Source of the DNA: a virus
IMG/VR virus record: IMGVR_UViG_3300031608_000024
Span: 1-31,412 of that record
DNA: 31,412 bases
Reading direction: 5' to 3' (one strand)
Shown: piece by piece, positions 6,969 to 31,412 of the stretch
Position numbering within the stretch: the stretch's first letter is position 1
Layout: every line of letters begins with the position of its first letter
Program-made: the position numbers and the translations under genes
The notes under the pieces: generated by a model
Databases searched by the model: none
The model's input: only the letters and a program-made list of their open reading frames with translations
Told to the model about the DNA's origin: nothing

Positions 6969-6998
6969 TCATTCGTGTAGCTGCCTTTAAATTATTTG

Positions 6999-7028
6999 TA
7001 TCTTTATCCTTTAATCAAATCAAATCAA
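6999..7028 (+). promoter_or_regulatory. Candidate -7 box and AAATC-repeat leader
   Basis: TATCTTTA (6999-7006) is one mismatch from the Bacteroidetes -7 box TAnnTTTG. It is followed by a leader of three AATCA/AAATC-like repeats running directly into ATG at 7029. No convincing -33 TTTG is visible, so this is a candidate only. The same box plus similar spacer is found upstream of 16894. Confidence 0.45.
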
Positions 7029-13214: not shown

Positions 13215-13236
13215 CAAAAAGCATATTGCTTTTTTG
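13215..13236 (+). terminator. Intrinsic terminator after portal gene
   Basis: AAAAAGCA (13216-13223), loop TAT, TGCTTTTT (13227-13234) plus a further T. The hairpin begins right after the portal stop codon and ends just before the next -7 box. Confidence 0.65.
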
Positions 13237-13238
13237 TG

Positions 13239-13267
13239 TAAATTTGTAATAAATCTAATCTAATCAA
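13239..13267 (+). promoter_or_regulatory. Candidate -7 box (TAAATTTG) and AAATC-type leader for scaffold gene
   Basis: TAAATTTG at 13239-13246 matches the Bacteroidetes -7 consensus exactly. The leader has repeated AATCT/AATCA units that run into ATG at 13268. A -33 TTTG at the usual distance is not evident. Confidence 0.5.
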
Positions 13268-14413: not shown

Positions 14414-14433
14414 TATAAATTAAATATAACATT

Positions 14434-15888: not shown

Positions 15889-15899
15889 TAGAGTGAATT

Positions 15900-15925
15900 T
15901 AATGGGGGTGTAAAAGCCCCCATTA
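15900..15925 (+). terminator. Hairpin terminator after capsid gene
   Basis: A nine-pair stem TAATGGGGG/CCCCCATTA (15900-15908 and 15917-15925) with an eight-base loop, followed by an A/T-rich run rather than a pure T tract. Confidence 0.6.
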
Positions 15926-15956
15926 TTATTATAAATTTTAAATTAAATCTAATCTA

Positions 15957-16715
15957 GTGAATAACTCAGAACGAAAAGTGTATGTTGATAAGACATATAA
16001 ATTAACAAGAGATGTAGCTCCTTTATCTCTAATACTAGCATCAAGACATACCCAAAGATTTCCTCTATTGTGGTTTGATGAAAAAAAAGGATTAAACAAA
16101 CCTTTAAGATATGCAAGAAATCAAAACTCTCCCTTTCAGGATGAGCAAGATGACAATGCAATATTAGAGCCTATAATATTTGAGAACGGATTTTTATCGG
16201 TTCCAAAAAACAATCAAGTTTTACAGAAGTTTTTATATTTTCATCCTGGGAATGGAAAGATTTTTGAAGAATTAAATAAAGAGAAAGAAGCAGCTGATGT
16301 GGTTGAAGAATTAAACATAGAGGTAGATGCTTTAATTGAAGCACGTCAACTTGATGTAGATCAGGTAGAAAATATATCTAGAGTTCTATTTAATAAAAAC
16401 ATCTCGACAGTAAGCACGGCAGAATTAAAAAGAGATATTTTAGTTTTTGCTAAAAATCAAGCTAAAGACTTTTTGTTATTATTAAAAGACCCTATGCTAA
16501 AGTTAAACGCTACAGTACAAGGATTTTTTGACAAGGGGTTATTAACCTTAAGAAATGGAAATAAAGAAGTGTGGTTTAACACTCCTTCTAACAAAAAGAA
16601 AATGCTAAATGTTCCTTACGGAGAGGAGCCTCTATACATGGCAGTATCTTTTTTTCAAACGGAAGAGGGTTTAGAGTTATTAAAGCATTTATCTGGATTG
16701 TCAAAAAACGTGTAA
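15957..16715 (+). CDS. Hypothetical protein after capsid gene (GTG start)
   Basis: A 252-residue protein starting with GTG, placed exactly after an AAATC/AATCT-type repeat leader like those before 13268 and 7029, which supports the start. Features: TRDVAPLSLILASRHTQRFPLLWFDEKKG near the N-terminus (short conserved-looking Arg-rich strand then FPLLWFD), a central helical region with E/K (EELNKEKEAADVVEELNI), FAKNQAKDFLLLLKDP, and a C-terminus with VPYGEEPLYMAVSFFQTEEG. There is no signal peptide or membrane segment. Position suggests a virion or head-completion protein, but I do not recognise the family. The GTG start may lower its output relative to the capsid protein (inference). Confidence 0.7.
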   Translation: MNNSERKVYVDKTYKLTRDVAPLSLILASRHTQRFPLLWFDEKKGLNKPLRYARNQNSPFQDEQDDNAILEPIIFENGFLSVPKNNQVLQKFLYFHPGNGKIFEELNKEKEAADVVEELNIEVDALIEARQLDVDQVENISRVLFNKNISTVSTAELKRDILVFAKNQAKDFLLLLKDPMLKLNATVQGFFDKGLLTLRNGNKEVWFNTPSNKKKMLNVPYGEEPLYMAVSFFQTEEGLELLKHLSGLSKNV

Positions 16716-16817
16716 TAATATTTAGTATATTGTAGCTGTAAAAGGAGATAAGTTTCGCGACAGACTCTCTTTTTATAAAGAGTACTTTTGCGAGAGAGTA
16801 GCTTTTTTTCATAGTTA

Positions 16818-16846
16818 TAGCCCTTATTGCGATATAAGGGCTATTT
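16818..16846 (+). terminator. Intrinsic terminator, 10-pair stem
   Basis: TAGCCCTTAT (16818-16827), six-base loop, ATAAGGGCTA (16834-16843), then TTTTATT (16844 on). A perfect stem directly before the candidate promoter of the next gene. Confidence 0.75.
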
Positions 16847-16855
16847 TATTTATTG

Positions 16856-16893
16856 TATCTTTATTCTTTATTAACACATAAATTATTATTATT
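16856..16893 (+). promoter_or_regulatory. Candidate -7 box and leader of small virion gene
   Basis: TATCTTTA at 16856-16863 is near the Bacteroidetes -7 box. The 29 bases ending in the start codon (16868-16896) recur exactly at 17178-17206, so the leader was copied with the gene. Confidence 0.45.
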
Positions 16894-16896
16894 ATG
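16868..16896 (+). repeat. 29-bp leader repeat, copy 1
   Basis: An A/T-rich leader including the ATG, identical to 17178-17206. It contains TTAACACATA and several ATT units. Confidence 0.85.
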
Positions 16897-17172
16897 AATA
16901 AATACCTAAGCATACCGGTTACTAGTGAAGGAGATCAATTAGTTCCCGTAACAAATGTCAAACTAATTGAGGCGGCATCTACTACTTCTACGACTATTAA
17001 TTATGGTTCGTCAAAAGTAATTACAATAACGCATGCTGCAGTGCCAGCTAGCTCAACTAAGTTTAGAAACTTTTTACAAACAGAAATGGTTGCTGCTCTT
17101 AGTCTATCATGGACTAATGTAACTTTAGATATTAAACCTGCTTATGCTGTATCTAATATAGACATTGCATAA
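16894..17172 (+). CDS. Small virion-type protein, paralogue 1 of 3
   Basis: A 92-residue beta-rich protein. N-terminus MNKYLSIPVTSEGDQLVPV; a central TTSTTINYGSSKVITITHA; C-terminal FRNFLQTEMVAALSLSWTNVTLD. It shares all three parts with the next two genes (MEKFLSIPV..., VQNAVVSALESGWTSVSAD; and MEKFINFKQ..., VQNAVVASLQTPWSNVAFD). The family is not known to me. Position after the capsid gene and before the neck genes, its small size and its triplication suggest a decoration or minor head protein (inference). Confidence 0.65.
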   Translation: MNKYLSIPVTSEGDQLVPVTNVKLIEAASTTSTTINYGSSKVITITHAAVPASSTKFRNFLQTEMVAALSLSWTNVTLDIKPAYAVSNIDIA

Positions 17173-17177
17173 CATTA

Positions 17178-17206
17178 TTATTAACACATAAATTATTATT
17201 ATTATG
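17178..17206 (+). repeat. 29-bp leader repeat, copy 2
   Basis: Identical to 16868-16896 and ending in the ATG of the next gene. It supports a tandem duplication of gene plus leader. Confidence 0.85.
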
Positions 17207-17530
17207 GAAAAATTTTTAAGTATCCCAGTACTAGATGCTGGAGGAACATTAAATCAAGATCAATTGGTGTCGTGTTCTGGCATTGTAGCTATTGGTCAGA
17301 CAACTACAACCGCTGCAGCAATAACCTACTTAGACGGAAAAGTTGTAACTCTTACATGGCCTGATGCTTATGCATCGCCTATTTTAGAGGTATCAGTTCA
17401 AAATGCAGTAGTAAGCGCATTAGAATCAGGATGGACATCTGTGTCAGCGGATTATCTTCCAAAAGGAGCAACAGTAAACTTAGTTACTGGTGTAGTGTCT
17501 AACCCATTGAGTACAATAGTTTACTCTTAA
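17204..17530 (+). CDS. Small virion-type protein, paralogue 2 of 3
   Basis: A 108-residue protein with MEKFLSIPVLDAGGTLNQDQ, a beta-rich middle (AITYLDGKVVTLTWPDA) and VQNAVVSALESGWTSVSAD followed by a short extra tail. It aligns by eye with the preceding gene over its whole length and shares its 29-base leader exactly, so it is a recent-looking tandem duplicate at the leader but diverged in protein. Function unknown; decoration or minor capsid role inferred from position. Confidence 0.65.
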   Translation: MEKFLSIPVLDAGGTLNQDQLVSCSGIVAIGQTTTTAAAITYLDGKVVTLTWPDAYASPILEVSVQNAVVSALESGWTSVSADYLPKGATVNLVTGVVSNPLSTIVYS

Positions 17531-17543
17531 AATGATATCAACA

Positions 17544-18386
17544 ATGGAAAAATTTATAAACTTTAAACAACTTAACGTTGTTAAAACAGGAACGTCAACT
17601 GCTAATGGATCAGCAGCTTTGACACTAACAGATTCTGCCGCTTTATTTACACAAAGTGTTTTCGTTAATGCAATTGTATGGGACAGAACAACTAATGTTG
17701 GTCAAGGTGGACAAATGTATCTTGTTACTGCCGTTACCTCAGATACTGTACTAGCTCTAGTAGCAATAGGAGCTTCGGTTAGTAGAGGCGGAGGAGTGCC
17801 AGATGCAACAGGATATTTTATTTATAACCCAGAGAATACCGTTAAACAGAGCGGAACTGCTGATGGTACAGGATCGTATCAGTTAATCGACTCAACAGTT
17901 AATTTTGTTGCTGCTGGTGTTCAGGTAGGAGATTCAGCTTATGATATAACAGGAGGAGCTACCGCTACTGTAACAGCGGTTGGTGTAACTACATTAACAG
18001 TAGACGCTGATATATTTGTAGGAGGAGATGTATATATGGTATATCGAAAGGTAGCGGATAATCATGATAAATTAATGAGGTCAGCAGATTTAGGTTTTAT
18101 AGAAAACACAGGTACGAACACTCTAAATTCCGAACTTAAATTAACTTATGGAGATAAGTCAGCTTCACAGATCTTATTAACTTATGCTTTTACCTCTTCT
18201 GCAGGAGCAGATGAAGACATGAGAAATGGTGTTCAAAATGCAGTAGTTGCATCTTTGCAAACGCCCTGGTCTAATGTAGCTTTTGATTTTACAGGAGTAT
18301 TAAATAAAGAAGTTACGGCTGGAAACGTTAATGATGGACCATTAGCAGGGCAAAACTTTTTTATATTAAGATTTCAAAAAGTGTAA
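17544..18386 (+). CDS. Larger virion-type protein, paralogue 3 of 3 with two inserted beta-modules
   Basis: A 280-residue protein. I prefer ATG 17544 over 17532 because it gives MEKFINFKQL, matching the paralogues, and the first 12 bases equal those of the gene at 17204. The end repeats the paralogue tail (MRNGVQNAVVASLQTPWSNV). Between them are two beta-modules at about 15-95 and 102-168 (ALTLTDSAALF, FVNAIVWDR, QMYLVTAVTSDTVLAL, TGYFIYN; and YQLIDSTVNF, VQVGDSAYDI, ATVTAVGVTTLTVD, DVYMVY), related to those in the gene at 18478. A decoration or connector protein is plausible; no enzyme motif is seen. It is followed by a strong terminator. Confidence 0.65.
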   Translation: MEKFINFKQLNVVKTGTSTANGSAALTLTDSAALFTQSVFVNAIVWDRTTNVGQGGQMYLVTAVTSDTVLALVAIGASVSRGGGVPDATGYFIYNPENTVKQSGTADGTGSYQLIDSTVNFVAAGVQVGDSAYDITGGATATVTAVGVTTLTVDADIFVGGDVYMVYRKVADNHDKLMRSADLGFIENTGTNTLNSELKLTYGDKSASQILLTYAFTSSAGADEDMRNGVQNAVVASLQTPWSNVAFDFTGVLNKEVTAGNVNDGPLAGQNFFILRFQKV

Positions 18387-18414
18387 TATATAATCGTTAT
18401 AAATTTAATAACTG

Positions 18415-18451
18415 AAAGAGGGGTCAACAAAAATTGACCTCTTTTTTTTTT
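18415..18451 (+). terminator. Intrinsic terminator overlapping the next promoter
   Basis: A thirteen-pair stem (18415-18427 with 18434-18446, two G-T pairs), loop CAAAAA, then a T tract. The 3' arm contains TTG at 18434-18436, which is also a plausible -33 element for the next gene. Confidence 0.75.
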
Positions 18452-18462
18452 ACTTATCTTTG
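18434..18462 (+). promoter_or_regulatory. Bacteroidetes-type promoter, TTG-N18-TATCTTTG
   Basis: TTG (18434-18436), 18 bases, TATCTTTG (18455-18462). Box sequence and spacing fit the Flavobacterium/Bacteroides housekeeping promoter pattern. The gene's ATG at 18478 follows 15 bases later. It is the best promoter in the window. Confidence 0.65.
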
Positions 18463-18477
18463 TGTAAAAGAATAACA

Positions 18478-19692
18478 ATGATAAATTCTGTTAGGAATAC
18501 AGTTTTAGCAATAATTAATAAAAACAACTACGGTTACTTATCGCCTAATGATTTTAATTTATTTGCAAAACAAGCACAATTAGATTTGTTTGATGAGTAT
18601 TTTTTTCAATATAATCAACAGATAAATGAAGAAAACGCAAGGCTTTCAGGAACTGGATACGCAGATTTAAAAAAGGGATATGAAGAAGTTATAGATACAT
18701 TTTCACAAACAAGTAGTTTGGCACAAACTTTCACTACTCAGTCCACAGAGACTTCGGGAACTACTACAGCAGCAGCGCCAGCAGCAGCAGGAAATCAGTT
18801 AATTGATGGAACGGCAGCATTTACAGCAGATATGGTAGGAGATATAGTCTCTATTAATGTAAATGGCGTAACCTCTAAAATATTAATAACAGCTTTTGTT
18901 TCGGCAACTACATTAACAATAGACTCCACTTCGATAACTACATTAGGTCATGTATATAGTATATTAAAAACCACGCAAGCTCCTGCAGGAGTTGATAATA
19001 TATATGTGCTACCCAGTGCAGAGACAACAGGGTTTGATTATTATTTGTTAAATAAATTATTGGTATATAATACCATTACAGCAACCGGAACTACAACAGG
19101 CTTTGCTACAGCTGGTAATCAGATAAAAAACACGAGTGCTGCATTTACTGCTGCATTAGTGGGAAGTACTGTGTCAATAGTTTTAAACGATAACGTTGTA
19201 ACTACAGCGTTAATAACAGGCTTTACTGATCAATTTATAATAACAGTTGATTCAACGAGTATTTTGTTTTCAGGATTAAAGTACGAGATATATGAGGAAG
19301 GTAAATTAAATAATGAAGCAGAGCAAGTGAGTAATTCTAAAATAACAATGCTAAATAATTCTATTCTTACTCCTCCCACTTTAAATTATCCAGCTTATAC
19401 TCAAGAGGCTAATAATATAAAGTTATTTCCTGCGTCAATTAAGACTCAAGGTCAAGTAGTAGCTCAATATGTTAGGTACCCTAAAGATCCTAAATGGACC
19501 TTTACTTCAATATCAAACGGTGATCCATTGTTTGATCAAAGTCAAGCAGATTATCAAGACTTTGAACTCCCTATAGATGATGGAAATGATTTGGTATCTA
19601 AAATCTTACAATACGCTGGAATATCAATAAGAGAAGGGGATGTATTTAAATTTGGACAAGTTGAAGAACAAACACAAAACCAAGAACAATAA
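18478..19692 (+). CDS. Neck/adaptor-type structural protein with two inserted beta-modules
   Basis: A 404-residue protein. The start is set at ATG 18478; an upstream TTG at 18460 lies inside the -7 promoter box and is rejected. The core begins NSVRNTVLAIINKNNYGYLSPNDFNLFAKQAQLDLFDEYF and resumes with EQVSNSKITMLNNSILTPPT, NIKLFPASI and VRYPKDPKW, a pattern seen in neck or head-completion proteins of Bacteroidetes phages. Two related beta-modules interrupt it at about 100-164 and 206-272 (NQLIDGTAAF, DIVSINVN, TLTIDSTSI, HVYSIL; and NQIKNTSAAF, TVSIVLND, IITVDSTSI, KYEIY). Probably part of the portal-to-tail connector. The exact role is inferred from position between head and hub genes. Confidence 0.68.
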   Translation: MINSVRNTVLAIINKNNYGYLSPNDFNLFAKQAQLDLFDEYFFQYNQQINEENARLSGTGYADLKKGYEEVIDTFSQTSSLAQTFTTQSTETSGTTTAAAPAAAGNQLIDGTAAFTADMVGDIVSINVNGVTSKILITAFVSATTLTIDSTSITTLGHVYSILKTTQAPAGVDNIYVLPSAETTGFDYYLLNKLLVYNTITATGTTTGFATAGNQIKNTSAAFTAALVGSTVSIVLNDNVVTTALITGFTDQFIITVDSTSILFSGLKYEIYEEGKLNNEAEQVSNSKITMLNNSILTPPTLNYPAYTQEANNIKLFPASIKTQGQVVAQYVRYPKDPKWTFTSISNGDPLFDQSQADYQDFELPIDDGNDLVSKILQYAGISIREGDVFKFGQVEEQTQNQEQ

Positions 19693-19694
19693 TT

Positions 19695-20615
19695 ATGGCT
19701 TACATAGATCAAAAAAAATATTATACTAATGATACCAATCCTGCAAGTGAGGCCAATTGGGGGTCCTATCAATATGTAAGTTTAGCAGATATAGTAAACA
19801 ATTTCTTATTAATGTATGATGGGAATCATTCTTTAGTAAACAATGAAAGCAGATACAAAATTTTGTTTCATGCTAAAAGAGGAATACAAGAATTAAATTA
19901 TGATGCATTTAAAGAGATAAAATCTTTAGAGCTTACTGTTTATTCAGACCTAAGATTTGTTTTGCCCTCGGATTACATTAACTGGATTCGAATTTCTTTA
20001 TTTAAAAATAATTCAATTTTACCTTTAACAGAAAACATACAGGTTCAATCAGCATTATCTTATGTGCAAACGGCTACTGCTGCATTTACTTATGACGCTT
20101 CCAATAATGTTGAGAAAGAGGCTTCAGATCTTGATACTGCAAGAACAAACGGCAATTTAAGAAGTATATATTTAAATCAAGTTAATGATAACGATAATGC
20201 TGCAGCGAACACGCCTTATAACGAAGATTTTTATACCACAAATATTGGAGCTAGATATGGTTTAAATACAGAAACCGCTAATATGAATCCTACTTTTAGA
20301 ATAGACAAAAAAGCAGGAGTAATAAACTTTGACTCTACCATGGCCAACCAACAATGTATCTTAGAGTATATTTCGGATGGTATGGAAGGAGGGGTAGATT
20401 CGGAAGTGACGGTCAATAAAATGTTTGAGGACTATGTTTATGCTTACATAAGATATGCTATACTAAACAATAAGTTTGGGGTGCAAGAGTACATAATAAA
20501 CAGAGCACGAAAAGATAAAACAGCCTTGTTGCGAAATGCAAAAATTAGATTAAGCAATATTCACCCAGGTAGATTGTTAATGAACCTAAGAGGTGTAAAT
20601 AAGTGGATAAAGTAA
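19695..20615 (+). CDS. Tail tubular/ring protein (T7 gp11-like adaptor type)
   Basis: A 306-residue protein. Diagnostic stretch: YKILFHAKRGIQELNYDAF, then LELTVYSDLRFVLPSDYINW (about 52-97), a pattern found in ring or adaptor proteins under the portal of Bacteroidetes podoviruses, including crAss-like phages. The C-terminal half has a beta-rich region (ILEYISDGMEGG) and a final helix pair (FEDYVYAYIRYAILN, RARKDKTALLRNAKIRLSN). It starts two bases after the previous stop and is followed one base later by the hub gene. Role: adaptor linking portal and tail hub (from family resemblance). Confidence 0.7.
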   Translation: MAYIDQKKYYTNDTNPASEANWGSYQYVSLADIVNNFLLMYDGNHSLVNNESRYKILFHAKRGIQELNYDAFKEIKSLELTVYSDLRFVLPSDYINWIRISLFKNNSILPLTENIQVQSALSYVQTATAAFTYDASNNVEKEASDLDTARTNGNLRSIYLNQVNDNDNAAANTPYNEDFYTTNIGARYGLNTETANMNPTFRIDKKAGVINFDSTMANQQCILEYISDGMEGGVDSEVTVNKMFEDYVYAYIRYAILNNKFGVQEYIINRARKDKTALLRNAKIRLSNIHPGRLLMNLRGVNKWIK

Positions 20616-20616
20616 G

Positions 20617-21702
20617 ATGGGAAAAATACAAAGAAATTTTGTACTTGGGCGGATGAATAAAAGCCTTGATGAAAGGCTAGTACCTAATGGAGAATATGTA
20701 GACGCACTTAATGTAAGGTTGGGATCAACTGAAGCCTCAGAGGTAGGGTCGGTAGAAAACGCTAAAGGGAATTCTCAGATAACAGCTTTGTTTTTTCCTG
20801 ACTCAGATACTTTAACAAATGTAAACTTAAGCTCTTCTGCACGAACCATAGGAGCTTATGAAGACGGAGCAAATGAAACTATCTATTGGTTTGTGCATGA
20901 TCCTAGTTTTCCTTTAGGAGACACAGGAAAATGTGATATGATATGCTCTTTTAACACAACATCTGCAATAATAAACTATCATGTTGTCAGTCTAGATGAT
21001 GGTGGAGGAAACGATACAACATTAAATTTTAATCCTCAAAACTTAATAACGGGAGTAAATATGATTGGTCGTCTGTTATTTTTTACAGACAACATTAACC
21101 CTCCAAGGAATATAAATGTAGATAACAACTATGGTTCTCCTAAGTTTATAGTTAAACCTGTGGTAACTCCAGAACCTATTCCTCTTATAGCATGGAAATT
21201 TACAGCCGGGACATTTAGGCTTGGTAGTCTCCCAGCTCAAATAGGATTTCATCAAGGATCGCTGGCTGGATGTCCTGTATCAAAAGGAGAAATAGGGGTG
21301 GGAGAAACACCAACCACTAGTCAAATACCTTTACCAGGAACAGGCTGTTATACCCTAACAGGTTCTATTCCAGCTAAATTTACAAAAGGTTATGCAATAG
21401 CGGGGGTAAATAATGCATCTCAATATGCCTTGTCAATGTTTCTTCAAAGTTCTACGGGAAACCCGGCTTTTGGCTTTACCAACTCATCAGGTACTGGCGC
21501 TCCAGGAACAGTAACACTACAAGGAACTGTATTAGGAAGTGATGGGTCGAGCGGAACATGGTCGTGTAGCACTAATAGTGCCCCTAATTTTACAGACGGT
21601 AGTGGAGCGACCATAACAGGTCCGGAATCTGTAGACCCCGCTGGTACGTTGGAAGGAATAATCTTTAAGAATAAAGTAACTTATACAATATTTGTAAAAT
21701 AA
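20617..21702 (+). CDS. Tail hub protein (P22 gp10-like), N-terminal part with inserted domain
   Basis: A 361-residue protein. It starts KIQRNFVLGRMNKSLDERLVPNGEYVDALNVRLGS, the hallmark N-terminus of large tail-hub proteins of podoviruses related to P22 gp10, followed by VGSVENAKGN, ETIYWFVHDPS and GRLLFFTDNINPPRNINVDN (to about 172). In relatives I know this runs straight into a segment like the start of the next gene (FSAESLLVIKKPP, then ENFMEDRFLCFAYRY). Here about 185 residues of unrelated Gly/Thr/Ser-rich beta sequence (ending GIIFKNKVTYTIFVK) intervene, then a stop, then TAATG restarts translation. It appears to be the front half of a split hub. Confidence 0.75.
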   Translation: MGKIQRNFVLGRMNKSLDERLVPNGEYVDALNVRLGSTEASEVGSVENAKGNSQITALFFPDSDTLTNVNLSSSARTIGAYEDGANETIYWFVHDPSFPLGDTGKCDMICSFNTTSAIINYHVVSLDDGGGNDTTLNFNPQNLITGVNMIGRLLFFTDNINPPRNINVDNNYGSPKFIVKPVVTPEPIPLIAWKFTAGTFRLGSLPAQIGFHQGSLAGCPVSKGEIGVGETPTTSQIPLPGTGCYTLTGSIPAKFTKGYAIAGVNNASQYALSMFLQSSTGNPAFGFTNSSGTGAPGTVTLQGTVLGSDGSSGTWSCSTNSAPNFTDGSGATITGPESVDPAGTLEGIIFKNKVTYTIFVK

Positions 21703-24700
21703 TGGCCTCATACATAGATCAATTTTCCGCAGAGTCTTTATTGGTAATAAAAAAACCCCCAGTAGCTGCTCCTCAAATAACATCTTCAAAGATAGCAGGA
21801 GAGAATAATTTTATGGAAGATAGGTTTTTATGTTTTGCATATAGATATCAATATGTAGACGGCGAATTTTCGGCTACTTCTCAATTTAGTAGTCCTGCGT
21901 TTGTCCCTAAGTCTTTTAGTTTTGGTTCCAATAGTTTTTTGAACGAAGGTATGATTAACGCTGTAAATGCAGTAAATATATCATATAATACCGGAGGAGT
22001 TTTAGTAACAGGAATAGAGTTGTTGTTTAAAGAAATGAACGACTCGACAATAAAAGTTATTGAAAGATTTGATAAGGCTGAACTTGGATTGGGTAATGAC
22101 AACATAGAAACTTATTTATTTAATAATCAAAAAATATTTACTGTTTTACCGGAGTATGAAATATTACGACTTTATGACAATGTTCCTTTAAATGCTAAAG
22201 CTCAAACTTTGATGGGCAATAGATTAATATATGGAAACTACAAGGAAGGATATGATTTAGTAGATAGGTTTAATAATAAAGTAAATTTTGTTTTTGACAC
22301 TACTTTACTTTCTACGGAAATAACCGAAACAGAAATTATAGCAACTACACAAAACGGAAATTATAATATAAACGGAAACCTTGATGTAGTAAATTCTGTG
22401 GTGTTTATTCCTTTAGACGTTGATAAGTTAATTATTGGGGCCTCTATAACTTTTTCTTTAACAATAGTGCATGAGAGTTTTACGGGACAACAAAATTTCC
22501 CTACAGAAACTACTGTAAATACGGACATAGAATTCAGTTATATTTTGCAACAGACTTTTGCATCGGTTTTTGCCTTAGCAACTGACGCAGATTTTGTAGC
22601 TAAAATTGGAACCGCAGCCAACATTAAAACAGTAGCTAATGCTTGCACTGGAATAACATTAACAGATGTATTTAATTGCGCTATTCCATCCCAATTAGAC
22701 GCGTTTGAAAAATGTGCGAGTGGAATATCGGCTATAAATCAGCCTGTAGAAATTATAGCTTCTGCCTCTAGTTCATCTATTGGTCTTCAGCTGCCAGCTA
22801 TGCAGTGGTCTAATAGCTGTGAGTTTCCTCTTCAAGTTTTTTATGAATATTATTCAATAATTTTTACAGATGTAATACTATTTAGTGATTCAAACAATTA
22901 TAGTCTACACAGTAATAGAGGGTACGAGATAGGTATGGTTTATATGGACGAATTTAATAGATCGTCTACTACTCAGGTAAGCCTTAATAATGCAACTCAT
23001 GTTTCTTGTGGTTTGTCGAAAAGTAAAAATGAGATCCAAGTAACGATTCCAGGTGGTGGAGCAGGACAATCTTTTCAAGCAGCGCCTTTTTGGGCGACAA
23101 GGTATAAGTTTGTTATAAAGCCTGACAAGAGTTCATATGATACCATATACTCAAACATAATATATCAAGACCCTAATAGTAATGCTGCGTATTTTTTATT
23201 GGAAGGGGAAAACGCCAAAAAAATAGAATCTGGAGATAGGCTTATAGTAAAACGAGATGCAGGGGGTGCTATGGAAAATTGTGTTTATACTACGGTTTTA
23301 GAAAAACAAGTACAGACCAAGAATTTTATAGAGATTGATGACCCTCTTAACGCAGATACGCTCATAAATATATCCGCAGGGGTATATATGAAGATAAACC
23401 CAAATAATTTTAGAACTACTATTTTAACGGATGCTGGAGGTAATGTGGTTGCTCCTGGAAGAGTGTACGTACAGACTGCAAAAACGGGAAATTTTCCTAA
23501 AATATTTTATCCTGTTAATGTTATTAATCCTGCTGGAACAGGCGCTAATTCTTATGAAAATTACACTATACCATCAGGAAGCATAATAAACTTGTACTTT
23601 TATCAATTGAGGGAAGGTAATGGCAGAAAAGTAGAGCGGGTAAGAAATGAAGTAGAGTTTAAGGTAATTGCTACAAATGATTATGCGGACTTTAAAGAAA
23701 TGTGGGATGTAGAAAATGTAGGAGCTCTTTTAGATCAAAACCAAATAGGGCAAGTTTCGCCAGGCCCTACGCCTGAAGGAAGAGAAATTATTTTTAACTC
23801 ATACGATAATACTTTAGTGTCACAAGCAGGGCCGCCTAATCCAGGATCTCAGCCAAATCAAGCGCAACATACGTTCTTTTATCAATTTTTTAAAAACACC
23901 ACAACTGGACAGATTCAACTCGGAGTTTCAGGGCCTAGATCCGCAGGAAATTCATCCACACGTATAGCTCGTTTAACTGTTACTATAGAAGTTATAAGGG
24001 CGGATGCAACATGTGTTTTTGAAACGGAACCTACAGATGCTCTTGCAGATGTATGGTATGAAAACGAAAAATCTTTTCCTATAGATGCGTTAGGTAATCA
24101 TTCAGGTAATATTCAAAATCAAATAATAAATTTTCAAAATGCAGATGTGGTTACGCCTCAAGACGCAATAATAAATACAGGGTTTGTTAACTGTGTTACA
24201 TTTGGGAATGGAGTAGAAAGTTTTAAAATAAGAGATTCTTTAAATTCAAAATCATTTATTTTTGGTAACAGGGTTTCAAGCACATCAGCTCAAATATATA
24301 AAGCAGCTCACCGGTTTGCAGACCTTTCTTATAGTGGAATATTTAATGACGAGTCAAATGTAAATAAGTTAAACGAGTTTAATTTAGGGTTATTAAATTT
24401 TAAACCATTAGAGGTTTCATTTGGACCTATAGAAAAGTTATCAGGAAGACGAGATGATATATTAACCTTACAAGAAGATAAGATTTCATATGTTTTGGTT
24501 GGTAAAGATTTATTATCAGATGCATCTGGCGGTGGCGCTTTAACGTCTGTTCCTGAAGTTTTAGGAAAGCAAGTAGCCCGATCAGAAGAGTATGGTATAA
24601 GTAATAATCCAGAAAGTTTTGCGGTGTGGGGAGCAGATACTTTTTTTACTGATGCTAAAAGAGGTGTTGTTATAAATTTAAAAGGAAGTGCTGCAAGTAA

Positions 24701-26156
24701 TGATCGCCTTTTTATTATATCTCAAGCAGGAATGAGAGGATGGTTTCGAGACTTTTTTATTGAAACGATAGGAAGGCAAAAGCTAGGTGGTTACGATCCT
24801 TATATGAATGAGTTTATTTTGTCCTCAACCTCTGAGGATAACCCTTCTCAAAACCAGTGTAAACCATGCGGTGTAACAGAGAATGTTTTAGTGTCTCCTG
24901 GAAGTGAATCTATATATTGCGTAAACTTATCTCAAGAAGTGGGTCAGGTTACGATAACATATATTATACCCAATGCACTTGAAGATGGTGTTATTACGGA
25001 GTCAAATACTCCGGCTGGTGCAGGACTTCAAGAAATGGAAACGGAATTGGGTCAAATAATAACTACTGAGGAGACGATGACTGGTGTGGGATATTCTATT
25101 CAAGCCATTTATAATGGTATAGCCTATAGCACGGGAGATGTTTTTGTAAGTGGAACTTTAGTTTTTAGTAAAAATATTGTTGATGTTTCTGAAGTAACGC
25201 TTATTGTTACAACTACTTCTACGATTGCGGACACTATAGAGATTACTACTAGCTGTCCAACACAAACTATTTTGAATGTATATAATATAGCATTGACAAG
25301 TAATAATGAAGCAGAACAAACTATTCAAAACCAATATTCGTGGCTAGATGACTCCTTTTCTTCTACCGTGCAAAGTCAAAACGTAACGTTCTTATCTTCT
25401 ACAGCGAATCCTATTGTTTCTCAGTTTAATAAGTTAAGCGGAGCAATTGGATCAAACAGTGTTCCTGATGCTCTTTCAACAGTAACTATTATAAGCAATA
25501 AAAGAGATGAGGATACTTTTCTGTTTAACAAAAAAACTAATAAATTTAGATACTTAAGAAGCGACACGGTGTTTGAAAATAATGCAGCAGACATCAACAC
25601 TTTAATAGGGGCATCAGCAGTTGCTGAACCAATAACTCCAGGATCAAACAGAAATTTTGCTACTTTTGTTATGCCGGACAATACGGGGTCTAACTTGTAT
25701 TTGTTATGGGACTATAGAAGTTCAACAGGAATAGATTTAAATTATGACAGCATAAGCAAGTTTAACGCCTGCTGTTCTTCAATTATAGGACCAGAGTTAT
25801 TGTGCGGTCAAGCTCAAAGCGGAGGATTTGGTTATCCTATTACTTATAAATTAGTTCTGGGAACTGACACCGGAAATTCAATTTTACATTTTGTATCGGG
25901 TCAAACGCCAACAAGATATGTAGTAGAGTTTGATGGGGTCAATGTTATTGACACGGGGTATAGAGGTCCTGCTTCACAGCAAGGAACTTTAAATCAAGCG
26001 CTAACAGACTTAGGACAAGCAAGTGCTACAATAGCAGGAGTAGGATCAGGAAGCGCGACATTCGTTAAAAACACCGCAACGTCAGAAGCGAGACTTATTA
26101 TTTACGCTCCAATACGAAATTCAATATGGACCGCAACAGTAGATTGTCCAGTTTAA
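21702..26156 (+). CDS. Tail hub protein, large C-terminal part
   Basis: A 1484-residue protein, the longest here, with its ATG overlapping the previous TAA by one base. It begins MASYIDQFSAESLLVIKKPP and continues ENFMEDRFLCFAYRYQYVDG, FLNEGMINAVNAVNISYNTG, LLFKEMNDSTIKVIERFDK, and LRLYDNVPLNAKAQTLMGNR, the usual continuation of the hub protein begun at 20617. Further on come GYEIGMVYMDEFNRSS, many strands consistent with beta-propeller or beta-sandwich folds, DKISYVLVGKDLL, and AVWGADTFFTDAKRGVVINL. The last ~120 residues hold a separate module (VEFDGVNVIDTGYRGPASQ, then RLIIYAPIRNSIWTATVDCP) seen in Bacteroidetes and cyanophage surface proteins. Role: tail hub closing the portal vertex and carrying fibres. 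Confidence 0.8.
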   Translation: MASYIDQFSAESLLVIKKPPVAAPQITSSKIAGENNFMEDRFLCFAYRYQYVDGEFSATSQFSSPAFVPKSFSFGSNSFLNEGMINAVNAVNISYNTGGVLVTGIELLFKEMNDSTIKVIERFDKAELGLGNDNIETYLFNNQKIFTVLPEYEILRLYDNVPLNAKAQTLMGNRLIYGNYKEGYDLVDRFNNKVNFVFDTTLLSTEITETEIIATTQNGNYNINGNLDVVNSVVFIPLDVDKLIIGASITFSLTIVHESFTGQQNFPTETTVNTDIEFSYILQQTFASVFALATDADFVAKIGTAANIKTVANACTGITLTDVFNCAIPSQLDAFEKCASGISAINQPVEIIASASSSSIGLQLPAMQWSNSCEFPLQVFYEYYSIIFTDVILFSDSNNYSLHSNRGYEIGMVYMDEFNRSSTTQVSLNNATHVSCGLSKSKNEIQVTIPGGGAGQSFQAAPFWATRYKFVIKPDKSSYDTIYSNIIYQDPNSNAAYFLLEGENAKKIESGDRLIVKRDAGGAMENCVYTTVLEKQVQTKNFIEIDDPLNADTLINISAGVYMKINPNNFRTTILTDAGGNVVAPGRVYVQTAKTGNFPKIFYPVNVINPAGTGANSYENYTIPSGSIINLYFYQLREGNGRKVERVRNEVEFKVIATNDYADFKEMWDVENVGALLDQNQIGQVSPGPTPEGREIIFNSYDNTLVSQAGPPNPGSQPNQAQHTFFYQFFKNTTTGQIQLGVSGPRSAGNSSTRIARLTVTIEVIRADATCVFETEPTDALADVWYENEKSFPIDALGNHSGNIQNQIINFQNADVVTPQDAIINTGFVNCVTFGNGVESFKIRDSLNSKSFIFGNRVSSTSAQIYKAAHRFADLSYSGIFNDESNVNKLNEFNLGLLNFKPLEVSFGPIEKLSGRRDDILTLQEDKISYVLVGKDLLSDASGGGALTSVPEVLGKQVARSEEYGISNNPESFAVWGADTFFTDAKRGVVINLKGSAASNDRLFIISQAGMRGWFRDFFIETIGRQKLGGYDPYMNEFILSSTSEDNPSQNQCKPCGVTENVLVSPGSESIYCVNLSQEVGQVTITYIIPNALEDGVITESNTPAGAGLQEMETELGQIITTEETMTGVGYSIQAIYNGIAYSTGDVFVSGTLVFSKNIVDVSEVTLIVTTTSTIADTIEITTSCPTQTILNVYNIALTSNNEAEQTIQNQYSWLDDSFSSTVQSQNVTFLSSTANPIVSQFNKLSGAIGSNSVPDALSTVTIISNKRDEDTFLFNKKTNKFRYLRSDTVFENNAADINTLIGASAVAEPITPGSNRNFATFVMPDNTGSNLYLLWDYRSSTGIDLNYDSISKFNACCSSIIGPELLCGQAQSGGFGYPITYKLVLGTDTGNSILHFVSGQTPTRYVVEFDGVNVIDTGYRGPASQQGTLNQALTDLGQASATIAGVGSGSATFVKNTATSEARLIIYAPIRNSIWTATVDCPV

Positions 26157-26166
26157 AATAAAAATT

Positions 26167-27306
26167 ATGGCAGTAGGAAAATATTTTTTAGACACAGCGA
26201 GTTTTACTAACGCCAACACGGTGTATTCTGATGAAGCTTTGTCTGCTGCAGCTCCAGACGGCTTTTATTCCGATGGTGTTATATCAAGAGGCCAAGCGGC
26301 AGGAAAATTAGGTCCTTCAGAAGTGTGCATAGGATGTACTGGACCTACTCCAACTCCACAACCAACAGTTACTTTAACCCCAACTGTTACCCCACTGCCG
26401 CCAACACCGACGGTTACAGTGACGCAACCGCCCACGCCTACCCCGGCACCTTCACCTCTGCCAACAGCCACACCAGTTCCTACGCCAACAGCTACACCAC
26501 AACCAACGACGCTTCCGAGTGGATTGTATTATGCTTTAAGTCCTTGTGATAAATTTGCAGACCCAATTTTTGGTGCTACTGCGAGGTATTTCTTTGCTTT
26601 GACTACTCCTGTTGGAAATCAAAGATATGTAGATCCTTTATCAGGGAACTACTATACAGCATTACCTTCTCCACTTTTAAGCACGTTCGTAGTTGCTCCT
26701 CAAAATTTAATAATTGATGTTTCAATAGTGCCTAATGAGACAGGTTGTCCTGTTATCAACGTAACGCCACTATTAGCATATAGACTAAGACGATGTGCGG
26801 ATGGTAATTTTAACTTCTATACTTTTTCACAAGCACAATTTGCAACTGGCACCCGAGTAATTGATACCGCTAATGACACCTATCAAGTAGAGTCCATTAT
26901 CGGGGCTCAAAACCTTGCAGGATTAACATTGATAACGCCAGTAATTTGTGTAGATGTAAATGGTCTAAGACCTTCAGATGTAGGTTTCACTGGATGTGCC
27001 ACCAATAATTGTGGTAGTGGATTATATTTGCTTATGAGAGAATGTGGTAACGTTTTTGGACCATCCTCATTTGGAAACTATATTGTATCCGCATTGAATT
27101 TTCAAGAATTAGCGTTAACAGGAATTCCAAGCTGGGCTCCTCAAACTCTTTATTCTACTGTTACTAATAAATGCTATATAGTTACCGGGGGTCATAATGA
27201 ATCTGCATCTAATTTAGGAGGAGTTTCTCAGAGAATTGGAGGGCTTGTGAGTGTCGCTCGTATGGCAAGGGACTGTACCACATGTACCTCAAGTTTTGTA
27301 GTTTAA
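26167..27306 (+). CDS. Virion surface protein with Pro/Thr-rich linker
   Basis: A 379-residue protein. Residues 1-57 form a recurrent phage module (KYFLDTASFTNANTVYSDEA, DGFYSDGVISR, CIGC at 54-57). Residues 58-118 are almost entirely Pro and Thr with some Val, Gln, Ala (GPTPTPQPTVTLTPTVTPLP and similar), a stiff mucin-like linker. The rest looks like three related beta-rich units, each opening with a Tyr-x-Leu/Ala and Cys: YYALSPCDKF, AYRLRRCADG, LYLLMRECGN. Position right after the hub suggests a fibre or spike component. Two glycosyltransferase genes follow, making the Pro/Thr linker a plausible glycosylation target (inference). Confidence 0.7.
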   Translation: MAVGKYFLDTASFTNANTVYSDEALSAAAPDGFYSDGVISRGQAAGKLGPSEVCIGCTGPTPTPQPTVTLTPTVTPLPPTPTVTVTQPPTPTPAPSPLPTATPVPTPTATPQPTTLPSGLYYALSPCDKFADPIFGATARYFFALTTPVGNQRYVDPLSGNYYTALPSPLLSTFVVAPQNLIIDVSIVPNETGCPVINVTPLLAYRLRRCADGNFNFYTFSQAQFATGTRVIDTANDTYQVESIIGAQNLAGLTLITPVICVDVNGLRPSDVGFTGCATNNCGSGLYLLMRECGNVFGPSSFGNYIVSALNFQELALTGIPSWAPQTLYSTVTNKCYIVTGGHNESASNLGGVSQRIGGLVSVARMARDCTTCTSSFVV

Positions 27307-27310
27307 TAAA

Positions 27311-27335
27311 ATGAAATCAAATCAAATCAAATTAA
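27311..27335 (+). promoter_or_regulatory. AAATC-repeat leader of glycosyltransferase gene
   Basis: Three AAATC units and an AAATT unit run into ATG at 27336. No -7 box is evident here, so this repeat acts as a leader in an operon rather than as part of a promoter. An ATG at 27311 in another frame is ignored. Confidence 0.5.
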
Positions 27336-28565
27336 ATGGAATCTATATTTATACAAATTGCAAGCTATCGCGACCCTGAACTTATACCTACTCTTGATGA
27401 TTTATTATTAAACGCGAGTCATCCAGAGCGACTTACTATTTGTGTCGCACATCAATATGATGAGAAAGATAAGTGGGATAGTTTAGAAAAATACAAAAAC
27501 GACAGTAGGTTTATAGTGATTGAAATACCTCATCTAGAATCTGGTGGAGCATGTTGGGCAAGAAATCAAGTTCAACAACATTACGACAATCAAGATTATA
27601 CTTTACAGTTAGACTCTCATCATAGATTTATAAAGGGGTGGGACGTAAGGTGTATTGATATGTTAAAAGATCTGCAGGAGAAAGGACACTCTAAGCCATT
27701 ACTAACAAGCTATATACCTTCTTATAAACCTTCTAACGATCCTGCGGAAAGACATAACAAACCATGGGGGATGAGTTTTGATCGATTTACTCCAGAAGGG
27801 GTAGTGTTTTTTTTACCTTATTATATAGATAGTAATACTACGGAGCCTATTCCTGCTCGGTTTTATTCCGCACATTTTGCTTTTACGTTAGGAGTTTTTT
27901 GTAAAGAAGTTCAGCACGACCCTTTGTTTTATTTTCATGGAGAAGAAATTACAATAGGAGTAAGGGCTTTTACTCATGGCTATAGTTTGTTTCATCCTCA
28001 TGAAGTTCTAGCATGGCATGAATACACGAGAGAAGGAAGAACAAAACATTGGGATGATCATTCTAGTTGGGGAACGCACAACAATCAAGCTCATCAGAGA
28101 ACCAGGCTCTTGTTGGGAGTAGATGGACAGGTTTGTACTCCTTGTAATAAAAATATGTTTCAAGGGTACGACATAGGAACTGTAAGAACATTGAAAGAAT
28201 ACGAGTTATATGCGGGCATAAGATTTAAAGATCGAACATTAACGCAGTCTTGTATAAGTAACATAGATCCTCCTGGAGATTTATCGGACACTTTTCTGCT
28301 AAAGTTTAAGCATGCTATTGATTTAAACAAATCTTTTTTCCCAGAAAAAGACTATAATTTTGCAGCACTTGTTTTTGAAGACATTAATAATAAGGAGGTT
28401 TATAGACAAGACATAAGCAAACAAGAGATTGACGAGTATTTAAACGGCTCTAGCGATTCGTTTACGGTATGGAGAGAGTACAATGGACCTAAACCTCATC
28501 ATTGGATATTGTGGCCTAACAGCGCACACAAAGGGTGGGGTTTAAAAACTACAGTAAACTTATGA
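27336..28565 (+). CDS. GlcNAc-transferase-like glycosyltransferase (PF11397/GT60 type)
   Basis: A 409-residue enzyme. Motifs match the family of Skp1-type (hydroxyproline) GlcNAc transferases: IFIQIASYRDPELIPTLDDL at the start, SHPERLTICVAHQ, SGGACWARN (68-77), and LQLDSHHRFIKGWD (90-103), where D93-S-H95 is the metal/nucleotide-sugar site, then FYFHGEEITIGVRAFTHGY and EVLAWHEYTREG with conserved His and acidic residues. Expected action: transfer of GlcNAc, or another sugar, from a UDP donor to protein, possibly to hydroxyproline; donor and acceptor are not visible. It is soluble, with no signal peptide. It overlaps the next glycosyltransferase by ATGA, so the two are made together. Confidence 0.8.
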   Translation: MESIFIQIASYRDPELIPTLDDLLLNASHPERLTICVAHQYDEKDKWDSLEKYKNDSRFIVIEIPHLESGGACWARNQVQQHYDNQDYTLQLDSHHRFIKGWDVRCIDMLKDLQEKGHSKPLLTSYIPSYKPSNDPAERHNKPWGMSFDRFTPEGVVFFLPYYIDSNTTEPIPARFYSAHFAFTLGVFCKEVQHDPLFYFHGEEITIGVRAFTHGYSLFHPHEVLAWHEYTREGRTKHWDDHSSWGTHNNQAHQRTRLLLGVDGQVCTPCNKNMFQGYDIGTVRTLKEYELYAGIRFKDRTLTQSCISNIDPPGDLSDTFLLKFKHAIDLNKSFFPEKDYNFAALVFEDINNKEVYRQDISKQEIDEYLNGSSDSFTVWREYNGPKPHHWILWPNSAHKGWGLKTTVNL

Positions 28566-30856
28566 TTCCAAAACTAATTCATCAAACATTCGAAACAGAA
28601 TATACTCCTACAGACATGTCTAAAGCTAGAGACAGCTGGAAGATTAATAACCCCGAGTATCAATACCACTTCTATAATGACACTCAAAGAATAGAATACA
28701 TAAAGAAACATTTTTCCCCTCAAGTTTTAGAAGCATACCATTTTCTTATTCCCGGATCTTTTAAAGCAGACTTGTTTAGGTATTGTGTTTTGTATATTAA
28801 AGGAGGTGTGTATGTGGATTGTGATATGATATGTCTGCAACCTTTATCTAAACTTATAGAGGATGGGGACAAGCTAATTATTGTTCGTGATGATCCTATG
28901 ACTAAAAAATGGTTAGCAACTGGATTTATAGCCGCAGAACCTAGGCACCCAGCGTTGTGGGAAGCTATTAATAAGGTTACAGAAAATATAATTAAAAGAG
29001 AAGAAGTTTTTTACCTAGACTATACAGGTCCTGGTGCTTTTGGAAAAGCAGTAAATTGTGTGGCCGGACGAGACATAGAAACAGATTATGAACTTGGAAA
29101 TCAATACATAAATACTTTAAAAGTTAAAATATTATTTCATGATTATGTAAATACTAAATTTAAATATGACGGTCAAGAGGTATTGCACGTAGAGTACCCA
29201 ACCTATAGGGAAGAGATGAAAGCTATTAATAACCATCCATTTTATTATTACGTGCAAAACAAAAATATATTTAAAAAAATACCCAATAAGATAATATTTA
29301 CCACATATGATGGGTTAGATGTTAACGATTATATGGTGTCTTCATTTAAAAAACTCAATCCTGAATATGAGCTTATACATTTTAATCAAGAACAAGTAGA
29401 CCAGTGGTTTAAAGATGGGATATATAATGAAGCATATCAAAAACTGTCCGAAAGAGGAGAGCGCTCTGACTTTTTTAGATACTGTTATCTTTGGGAAAAC
29501 GGAGGAGTTTATGTAGATGCAGATATTTATTGTAATCAGCCCTTAAGAAATTGGATTATAGATCAAGCTTTGATTGTAGGGTTAGAAGCAAACATGGATG
29601 TGTCAGACCCCCTCTTTAAAGACATAGGAGTAAGAGTGGATGATAAGATATTAAGCGTTTCTAACTGGGCGTTTGCTTGTGCTCCACGACAAATGCCTTT
29701 GAATTTTATTATAAATGACATAATTAATAACCCCTTATCAGGCGTTCTTCAAAACACAGGACCTGGTAGATTTAGTAAACATATGATTGCTTATTTTGGG
29801 AAAGAAAACAAAATTAAAGATAGCCATCTTCTCCCTATAAACGCCTTTGGATCAAACCAAAATCACAGTGGCTCTTATAAAAACGCTAATCCTTTGAATG
29901 TTAATCGATCAGATGTTTATTTGACTCATATGTTTGCGGGAACATGGAGAGGTAATGTAACTCCAAAAAAAATAATGTATTTAGACAAGGAGACAGCTCC
30001 TGCGGTTTCTCATAACATCACCATATCAAAAACACTGACTGGCTATAAGGGTGTGGCAAGGTATGACCAGGACACTAAGAGAACTGTATTTATGAAAGAA
30101 ATTGGAGAGTGCAAGTCTCTTTTAGAATATCACTTTGATCATGACTTTAATTACACGTCTAAATCAATTAGACCTATAAATACAAACACGGACGAGCTTT
30201 TAAAGTTTGAAGACTATCGAGCTTTTACTTTTAAAGGTAAGGAGTTTTATTGCGTGGCTTACATAGATAAAGATTTCAATACTTACATGGGCGTTTTAGA
30301 TGGAGAATATAATTTTAAAGGAAAGATTCAAATAGACCGTCATCAAAAAATAAGTTTTGGAATAGGAGGGGATGTCTTGTGGGAAAAGAACTGGTTGTTT
30401 GTAGAAAAAAACAATGAATTGTATTTTATATATTCAACCACACCTAATCTTATTATATATAAATGTGATGATTTTGAAACTTTAAAATTTTCTGTTAACA
30501 GTACAAAAGTAAATTTTCTATCAAACATTTTACCTCAAGACGAGCTTTACGTCACATCAAATACCACCACAGGTGGATCGACAAATCCAATATGGGTACA
30601 TTCGTTAGACTCTTATGTTTATTTAATACACACTAAAATATATAATGAAAGAAAATACAATCATTTTGTAGTAACCTTAGACAAGGACTTTAATCTTAAA
30701 AACTTAAACCCGGTTCCTTTTGTTAGATCACAGGCAGGTACCTTGATGTTTGTCACCACCCTTTTAGAGACTAAAGAGCACTATGTAGTTTGTGGAGGAG
30801 TAGATGACAATCAAAATTTTATATGGGAAATACCTAAAAACAGATTGGTGGTTTAG
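28562..30856 (+). CDS. Three-domain glycosyltransferase: two GT32-like domains plus GH130-like propeller
   Basis: A 764-residue protein; ATG 28562 is chosen because it forms the ATGA overlap and begins MIPKLIHQTFE, the canonical GT32 start. Domain 1 (1-225): FKADLFRYCVLYIKGGVYVD with the DxD motif D86-C-D88. Domain 2 (240-465): NKIIFTTYDG, RSDFFRYCYLWENGGVYVDA with D319-A-D321, ending in HMFAGTW. Domain 3 (about 485-764): repeated blades with WEKNWLFVEKNNELYFIYST (EKNW 608-611), GGSTNPIWV (671-679) and HFVVTLDKDF, as in GH130-like five-bladed propellers fused to bacterial glycosyltransferases. Likely adds two sugars in sequence to an acceptor started by the enzyme at 27336. Sugars unknown. 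There is no membrane segment, so it works in the host cytoplasm. Confidence 0.82.
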   Translation: MIPKLIHQTFETEYTPTDMSKARDSWKINNPEYQYHFYNDTQRIEYIKKHFSPQVLEAYHFLIPGSFKADLFRYCVLYIKGGVYVDCDMICLQPLSKLIEDGDKLIIVRDDPMTKKWLATGFIAAEPRHPALWEAINKVTENIIKREEVFYLDYTGPGAFGKAVNCVAGRDIETDYELGNQYINTLKVKILFHDYVNTKFKYDGQEVLHVEYPTYREEMKAINNHPFYYYVQNKNIFKKIPNKIIFTTYDGLDVNDYMVSSFKKLNPEYELIHFNQEQVDQWFKDGIYNEAYQKLSERGERSDFFRYCYLWENGGVYVDADIYCNQPLRNWIIDQALIVGLEANMDVSDPLFKDIGVRVDDKILSVSNWAFACAPRQMPLNFIINDIINNPLSGVLQNTGPGRFSKHMIAYFGKENKIKDSHLLPINAFGSNQNHSGSYKNANPLNVNRSDVYLTHMFAGTWRGNVTPKKIMYLDKETAPAVSHNITISKTLTGYKGVARYDQDTKRTVFMKEIGECKSLLEYHFDHDFNYTSKSIRPINTNTDELLKFEDYRAFTFKGKEFYCVAYIDKDFNTYMGVLDGEYNFKGKIQIDRHQKISFGIGGDVLWEKNWLFVEKNNELYFIYSTTPNLIIYKCDDFETLKFSVNSTKVNFLSNILPQDELYVTSNTTTGGSTNPIWVHSLDSYVYLIHTKIYNERKYNHFVVTLDKDFNLKNLNPVPFVRSQAGTLMFVTTLLETKEHYVVCGGVDDNQNFIWEIPKNRLVV

Positions 30857-30884
30857 TAATAATAAATCATTAATAATAAAGTTG

Positions 30885-30912
30885 TAAATTTGTTTCAATA
30901 AAATCAACAGCA
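30885..30912 (+). promoter_or_regulatory. Candidate -7 box (TAAATTTG) before the last gene
   Basis: TAAATTTG at 30885-30892 is identical to the box at 13239. It is followed 20 bases later by the GTG start at 30913, through a leader containing AAATC. No clear -33 element. Confidence 0.45.
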
Positions 30913-31412
30913 GTGAGCAGTATAGGATGCGGTGGCGTAGTTTCATTAGTTCCAGACAAATATGGAGCTGGAGGCACATATAGAGGAACAGATGGTGTTC
31001 TTTATAGGGTAGGAAATACAAGGTGTTATACAACAACACAAGGCACCCCGAATGGCATCGTAACCATGTCGATAGAGATTGATCCTGGACAACCAGCTAC
31101 TGTCGCTTCGTTAGTAGCTCAAGGAGTTGTCTTGTTTCAAGGAAAAGAAGTTGCTACATTTTATGGAGCCAATGCTGTAGTAGGAGGAACCAGTAACCTA
31201 TCAGGGGTAAAAACGGTAAAAGCTAATAACAATTTACCGGGAGCTCTTAACAATGTGTTGCCAGCAGGGCAATATTGCATCCTTACGTTTAAGATAGCAA
31301 CTTCTAGTTTTTTAGGAACGACACCTAGTGGTGAGATACAAATATGTCTGAGCGGATCTATACCTGCACCCGCTCCGACTTCGCCTCTAGTGCCGCCACC
31401 GTCACCTACCTC
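30913..31412 (+). CDS. Virion-type protein entering a proline-rich linker (partial, 3' end missing)
   Basis: Open from GTG 30913 to the window edge (166 complete codons); the nearest in-frame stop upstream is at 30877. The first ~145 residues are beta-rich with paired Cys (SSIGCGGVVSLVPDKYGAGG, NTRCYTTTQ, AGQYCILTFKIA, IQICLSG). Then IPAPAPTSPLVPPPSPT begins a proline-rich stretch like that in the gene at 26167. It is probably a second surface or fibre protein flanking the glycosyltransferase pair. The GTG start is the only standard start giving the whole domain, so start confidence is moderate. Confidence 0.6.
   Translation, partial: MSSIGCGGVVSLVPDKYGAGGTYRGTDGVLYRVGNTRCYTTTQGTPNGIVTMSIEIDPGQPATVASLVAQGVVLFQGKEVATFYGANAVVGGTSNLSGVKTVKANNNLPGALNNVLPAGQYCILTFKIATSSFLGTTPSGEIQICLSGSIPAPAPTSPLVPPPSPT

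Follow-up and report, generated by a model that had tools for sequence, protein, structure and literature searches.

A candidate protein O-glycosylation cassette beside Thr-Pro tracts in the tail-tip operon of a putative marine crAss-like phage

We analyzed a stretch of viral DNA of 31,412 nucleotides (IMG/VR record IMGVR_UViG_3300031608_000024, positions 1 to 31,412; hereafter the window), in which two glycosyltransferase genes are embedded in the muzzle (tail-tip) operon between two genes for Pro/Thr-rich proteins, PR1 and PR2. We consider it likely that this locus is a phage-encoded O-glycosylation cassette positioned beside its own substrates, the tail-tip Thr-Pro tracts of PR1 and PR2, although no glycan has been shown. 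This reading rests on computed results: the enzyme families and folds, where the genes sit in the muzzle operon, and how enzymes and tracts are associated across phages. Because enzymes and tracts tend to co-occur in both related and unrelated phages, mucin-like sugars are most likely added by this phage to its own tail tip.

Organization of the muzzle operon

Crassviruses, which infect Bacteroidota, form a large group, and little is known of how their tail tips engage the host. The source of the window, a marine phage, is judged from sequence to be crAss-like, and the window is its late region. This assignment, a point beyond the earlier note made from the letters alone, is based on the matches of the muzzle to PF25731 and phrog_14478 (Table 1). 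The nearest annotated relatives of the window are Flavobacterium and Cellulophaga phages and one circular spring-water genome, and annotated structural proteins of Cellulophaga and Flavobacterium phages are homologues of the main muzzle protein. The gene order, 5' to 3', is muzzle (two ORFs), PR1, GT60, double GT32 enzyme and PR2, which runs into the window edge. The Crassvirales muzzle family match thus lies within the window, and the muzzle C-terminal domain (MUZ_C, PF25729) lies beyond the edge and is inferred from PR2, in which residues 1-145 are homologous to the N-terminal domain encoded by relatives' muzzle-C genes (E 4.7e-7). By this homology, PR2 is predicted to be the muzzle C-terminal gene.

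Table 1. Coordinates and supporting evidence for features of the window.
Feature	Position	Strand	Evidence or remark
Muzzle (tail-tip) N-terminal part, own ORF	20617..21702	+	PF25731 E 1.9e-7; phrog_14478 positions 2-152
Main muzzle protein	21702..26156	+	phrog_14478 E 1.6e-184, from position 159 on
PR1, tail-tip-associated protein, likely acceptor	26167..27306	+	Virion location inferred from position only
PR1 Pro/Thr tract, likely glycosylation sites (no glycan shown)	26335..26523	+	22 Pro and 21 Thr in 63 residues
GT60 polypeptide HexNAc-transferase candidate (activity inferred)	27336..28565	+	PF11397 E 1.5e-71
Double GT32 and propeller enzyme, 764 aa	28562..30856	+	PF04488 E 1.8e-32, 112 bits, two stretches
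First GT32 domain, DxD at residues 86-88	28562..29266 (boundaries approximate)	+	PF04488, AlphaFold2 model
Second GT32-like domain, DxD kept (VDAD)	29276..29956 (boundaries approximate)	+	PF04488, AlphaFold2 model
GH130-fold beta-propeller domain	29999..30853	+	Foldseek
PR2, 5' part, likely acceptor	30913..31412	+	Relatives' genes end in muzzle C-terminal domain PF25729

The N-terminal 54-59 aa of PR1 are conserved across our survey, in relatives with and without enzymes, and its C-terminal part in the near clade. Proline makes up 3.7% of the window's other ORFs, and a 40-aa stretch with 16 Pro would be expected by chance about 4e-9 times. The Pro-rich tract of PR2 starts near 31360, after which the ORF leaves the window. 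The phrog_15511 match of PR1 was limited to the Pro-rich stretch; it was treated as compositional.

A GT60 enzyme followed by a double GT32 enzyme

The GT60 protein scores 242 bits against the PF11397 profile, for which the curated cut-off is 21. Its DxH motif is DSH (residues 93-95), with D93 and H95 invariant in 31 sequences. The best PDB matches of its structural model (pLDDT 92.4) are ppGalNAc-Ts, at a moderate TM-score of ~0.5; a sequence search for solved GT60 relatives returned none. The fold result agrees with published work: GT60 and GT27 have in common a DxH motif, in place of DxD, and peptide O-glycosylation (PMC7185993), and the O-glycans of Trypanosoma cruzi mucins are started on Thr by a GT60 enzyme (PMC3769586). 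Tandem pairs of diverged GT60 genes occur at three other loci (L014, L015 and L029); in L029 the next gene encodes a protein in which FkbM methyltransferase and YibB are fused.

The ATG of the double GT32 gene at 28562 overlaps the GT60 stop codon as ATGA, an arrangement by which the two genes are predicted to be translationally coupled; a longer, GTG-started ORF at 28535 is also present. In the AlphaFold2 model of the enzyme (pLDDT 83.9), the GT32 part matches Och1/SetA. The second GT32-like domain is absent from the L049/L055 homologue. For the propeller, which has a five-bladed fold, the best Foldseek matches are GH130 mannoside phosphorylases (target-normalized TM 0.50-0.66). There was no Pfam GH130 match at E <= 1 and no sequence match to solved chains. 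Since sequence does not link it to GH130, we refer to the domain as GH130-fold and not as a GH130 member; a conserved E-D-x-R (KFEDYR) is seen in it, not aligned to a GH130 structure. No cultured phage has a relative of the double GT32 enzyme, and a first search of viral contigs with this enzyme gave no match; relatives were found with an alignment query.

These results bear out the descriptive part of the earlier note, which had proposed a PF11397-like glycosyltransferase overlapping by ATGA a protein with two DxD GT32-like domains and a propeller. Profile and model agree on the first, both PF04488 stretches carry a DxD, and the propeller, called 'GH130-like' there, does resemble GH130 enzymes in its model. 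Likewise, the virion-type protein with a ~60-residue Pro/Thr linker corresponds to PR1 and its 63-residue tract, and the second Pro-rich linker, said to begin at the window edge, is that of PR2.

Slot enzymes and Pro-rich tracts co-occur in related loci

The earlier note had asked for a survey of whether such enzymes accompany Pro/Thr-rich genes in relatives. Accordingly, loci were gathered with the GT60, muzzle, GT32 and MUZ_C proteins as queries (at least 589 MUZ_C loci were found and 80 kept), and the survey comprised 88 distinct loci spanning muzzle to MUZ_C after MUZ_C sequences were merged at 95% identity. Enzyme genes lie between muzzle and MUZ_C in 43 of the 88. Pro-rich tracts in muzzle, PR1 or PR2 are present in 38/43 enzyme-bearing loci and in 0/45 enzyme-free loci, so that the proposed association was recovered; the former count includes L067 on the strength of a 174-aa Pro-rich ORF (37/43 without it). 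In L031 and similar enzyme-free relatives, MUZ_C is a protein of ~268 aa whose domain lies close to the N-terminus; its counterpart in the window clade has acquired an N-terminal domain as well as a tract.

The enzymes found in this slot are GT60, double GT32, YibB (PF09612), prolyl 4-hydroxylase (P4H, PF13640), O-FucT (PF10250), carbamoyltransferase and FkbM methyltransferase; HPAT-family (hydroxyproline O-arabinosyltransferase), epimerase and radical-SAM/SPASM genes occur in the slot of single loci tested. One enzyme can give way in the slot to a different peptide-modifying one (P4H, O-FucT, HPAT-like or radical SAM) without loss of the tracts. In one crAss clade (L101, L103, L107, L111 and L199), GT60 is kept without Pro-rich tracts. 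The region is slightly richer in Thr/Ser/Pro there than in enzyme-free relatives, and since a protein of 730-807 aa is modestly rich in these residues, the acceptor may differ.

The enzymes could instead remodel a surface glycan of the host (O-antigen or capsule), blocking superinfection or changing receptors, with the tracts unrelated to them. Many phage glycosyltransferases do so, PF04488/PF05704 include capsule and cell-wall enzymes, and some GT60 genes (L011-L019) belong to clusters of glycan type that are apart from structural genes. We nevertheless think this unlikely, as the enzymes sit inside a split muzzle operon, the tracts vary with them, and the partners exchanged in the slot include peptide-modifying enzymes (prolyl hydroxylase, HPAT-like, radical-SAM/SPASM).

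Independence of the association

A Fisher test on the survey table gives p 7e-19 (computed with 37/43 versus 0/45). This test ignores shared ancestry, and because of that ancestry and the few events behind the table we do not use the p value as evidence. On a tree of muzzle plus MUZ_C (88 rows), two changes are enough for the enzyme state (mostly one gain and one loss), and three for the tract state. Such a history leaves room for the tracts to be plain flexible spacers whose link to the enzymes arose once by chance and was then co-inherited: one enzyme gain and one loss suffice, and PT-rich spacers are common in proteins generally.

Three observations make this quite unlikely in our judgement. 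First, L045, a locus within the enzyme clade, has an enzyme-free slot; its PR1 tract is gone and little remains of its PR2 linker, so that loss of the enzymes went with decay of both tracts, and the domains on both sides are kept. Its contig spans only 11 kb, and such an enzyme could be encoded elsewhere. Second, tract chemistry follows enzyme type. Within the enzyme clade GT60 changes 8 times and the hydroxylase 4 times and the tracts stay, yet their sequence differs: Thr precedes Pro in 65% of cases where GT60 occurs without P4H, in 42% where P4H is present and in 13% in O-FucT cassettes without P4H (a group of three related loci), in which Val and Ala replace Thr before Pro. Third, the pairing recurs outside this lineage.

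Recurrence in unrelated phages

The pairing of enzymes with tracts is found in at least two unrelated lineages, a 297-kb phage (G024) and the XacN1/RAS14 type. In the former, 4 of 373 ORFs are PT-rich, and all four lie within ~7 kb of GT60-carbamoyltransferase-YibB genes. The latter are cultured jumbo phages with GT60 and with 16 (XacN1) and 13 (RAS14) PT-rich ORFs, some of those in XacN1 beside tail sheath genes. Thr-Pro tract proteins of XacN1 include ORF232-237, 369, 370 and 372. For XacN1, proteomics detected at least two glycoproteins, and the authors suggested ORF328 and ORF334 as their source (PMC5852040). We find that ORF334 is a GT60 homologue; ORF328, a second glycosyltransferase, could also explain the glycoproteins.

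No PT-rich ORF was found in Erwinia phage Y3 or in six enzyme-free crAss-like phages, nor in three partial GT60-positive contigs (G011, G015 and G018; 51-122 kb). Likewise, no strong Pro-rich tract is encoded within 12 kb of P4H in cultured phages of Erwinia, Salmonella and Microcystis. The cultured cyanophage Synechococcus phage S-SCSM1 (L230) carries a comparable set at 10261-24546: several 2OG oxygenases, a protein O-fucosyltransferase and a carbamoyltransferase together with GDP-sugar enzymes and glycosyltransferases; its two PT-rich ORFs lie elsewhere in the genome.

XacN1 and RAS14 also bear on the possibility that the substrate of the enzymes is phage DNA, as it is in T4-like and other phages. 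Glycosyltransferases that act on DNA are a familiar class in phages (cited in PMC12619734), both genomes encode PF00303 proteins, and the XacN1 GT60 gene is ~5 kb from the DNA polymerase. By contrast, PF00303 (hydroxymethyl-pyrimidine synthase family), the only family tested, was absent from 18 IMG/VR records including crAss-like ones, the genes of the window have a late-operon position, and the GT60 model resembles polypeptide transferases. A role in DNA modification is therefore very improbable.

Acceptor residue and prolyl hydroxylases

PF13640 was found neither in the window, whose own genome is incomplete, nor in the largest same-clade contigs (52-58 kb). Given this absence and the 65% frequency of Thr before Pro in this cassette type, we prefer Thr as the inferred acceptor in this phage and set hydroxyproline aside as the less likely one in the window clade.

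The sister lineages differ. P4H and GT60 occur together in L098, L139, L173 and L190, and the P4H matches solved prolyl hydroxylases (E 2e-25). Within the 408-aa P4H protein, the C-terminal half is also similar to a cyanophage 2OG oxygenase, so that hydroxylation may persist in lineages that have this half alone. In L150, a cassette at 5588-9542 beside Pro-rich muzzle genes consists of a prolyl 4-hydroxylase, a sugar-nucleotide epimerase/dehydratase, a 273-aa protein of unknown function and an HPAT-family protein. This layout is repeated in L155 and L161, and an HPAT-size gene is also found in L152. The HPAT match is modest (E 5.5e-8), and no relative of this protein was found in cultured phages. 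Where P4H is accompanied by GT60 or by an HPAT-family protein, as in these lineages, the glycans are suggested to be linked to hydroxyproline. Separately, a radical-SAM/SPASM protein is encoded between the prolyl hydroxylase and GT60 genes of L139 (7185-8087), which suggests further peptide modification.

Proposed pathway and relation to known systems

In the pathway that we infer, including its acceptor residue, donor sugar and order of steps, GT60 would add an alpha-linked N-acetylhexosamine, most likely GlcNAc, to Thr of the (Thr-Pro)n tracts of PR1 and PR2. The double GT32 enzyme would then extend this first sugar by one or two residues, and the GH130-fold propeller may bind or trim the glycan. 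Where sister lineages carry prolyl 4-hydroxylase and other transferases in the slot, hydroxyproline would be the likely attachment residue. Effects on infection are likewise inferred; possible ones are stiffening of the tail-tip linker, protection from proteases, altered adsorption and masking. Glycosylation of the adjoining Pro/Thr-rich virion proteins, the central proposal of the earlier note, thus gains support from the co-occurrence, the double loss in L045, the repeats in unrelated phages and the ppGalNAc-T-like GT60 model, and still lacks a demonstrated glycan, glycoproteins being reported only for the distant GT60 phage XacN1. The effect on host contact that the earlier note also suggested goes further than these results.

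Neither the glycosylation of virions by phage enzymes nor the existence of viral prolyl hydroxylases is new. Phage glycosyltransferases are thought to act on virion proteins in mycobacteriophages (cited in PMC12619734) and in XacN1 (PMC5852040). Mycobacteriophage glycans are described on the C-termini of capsid and tail-tube subunits, whereas the acceptors predicted here are tail-tip Pro/Thr linkers and the enzyme slot is exchangeable. In the literature, of which our coverage is incomplete, we found no paper linking phage hydroxylases or GT60 to Pro/Thr-rich virion proteins.

A close eukaryotic likeness is the T. cruzi GT60 enzyme ppalphaGlcNAcT (PMC3769586), which has Thr/Pro-rich acceptor regions and further transferases that extend the glycan; the phage system differs in belonging to a bacterial virus, in encoding its acceptors beside the enzyme and in its GT32/GH130-fold extender, and its activity has not been shown. 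Protist Skp1 glycosylation, in which the GT60 enzyme Gnt1 follows a prolyl 4-hydroxylase (reviewed in PMC8724618), also has GT60 in common. This analogy had been drawn in the earlier note; it fits the P4H-encoding sister lineages better than the window clade, which is without detectable P4H and for which Thr is the likelier acceptor, and the phage acceptors are repetitive tracts, unlike the single site of Skp1. Plant extensin-type Hyp O-arabinosylation (HPAT, PF23452) has a counterpart in the L150-type cassettes, with P4H, HPAT-family protein and Pro-rich repeats, but only in relatives and not in the window.

More broadly, the tail-tip gene of Crassvirales may carry an exchangeable protein-glycosylation cassette, in some lineages a hydroxyproline-type pathway acting on extensin- or mucin-like muzzle tracts, with an acceptor sequence that tracks the enzyme set. 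We can neither favor nor discount this generalization. It is not excluded that the parts of such a pathway comprise prolyl 4-hydroxylase, an HPAT-like or GT60 transferase, a nucleotide-sugar enzyme and carbamoyl and methyl decorations. If it holds, the contact surface of the tail would be set by sugars that are invisible in bare protein structure or sequence, and eukaryote-style O-glycosylation (mucin-type and hydroxyproline-type), known mainly from eukaryotes, would operate in bacterial viruses. For XacN1, which is in culture and in which glycoproteins have already been reported, the prediction is a definite one.

The muzzle of crAss001, gp44 (PMC10172136), is of the same tail-tip protein family and has in common with this system the PF25731 domain and the PF25729 domain, the latter inferred for the window from relatives' genes, whereas the muzzle of the window is split into several genes with enzyme and tract-protein genes between the parts. 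The N-terminal and main parts are separate ORFs in L002-L010 as well, with MUZ_C as a third gene; Flavobacterium phage elemoF (L032) has a single muzzle ORF that includes MUZ_C. A conserved gene of ~136 aa lies 3' of MUZ_C in most loci, with or without enzymes, and is annotated in L031 (22520-22930) as an N-terminal acetyltransferase subunit.
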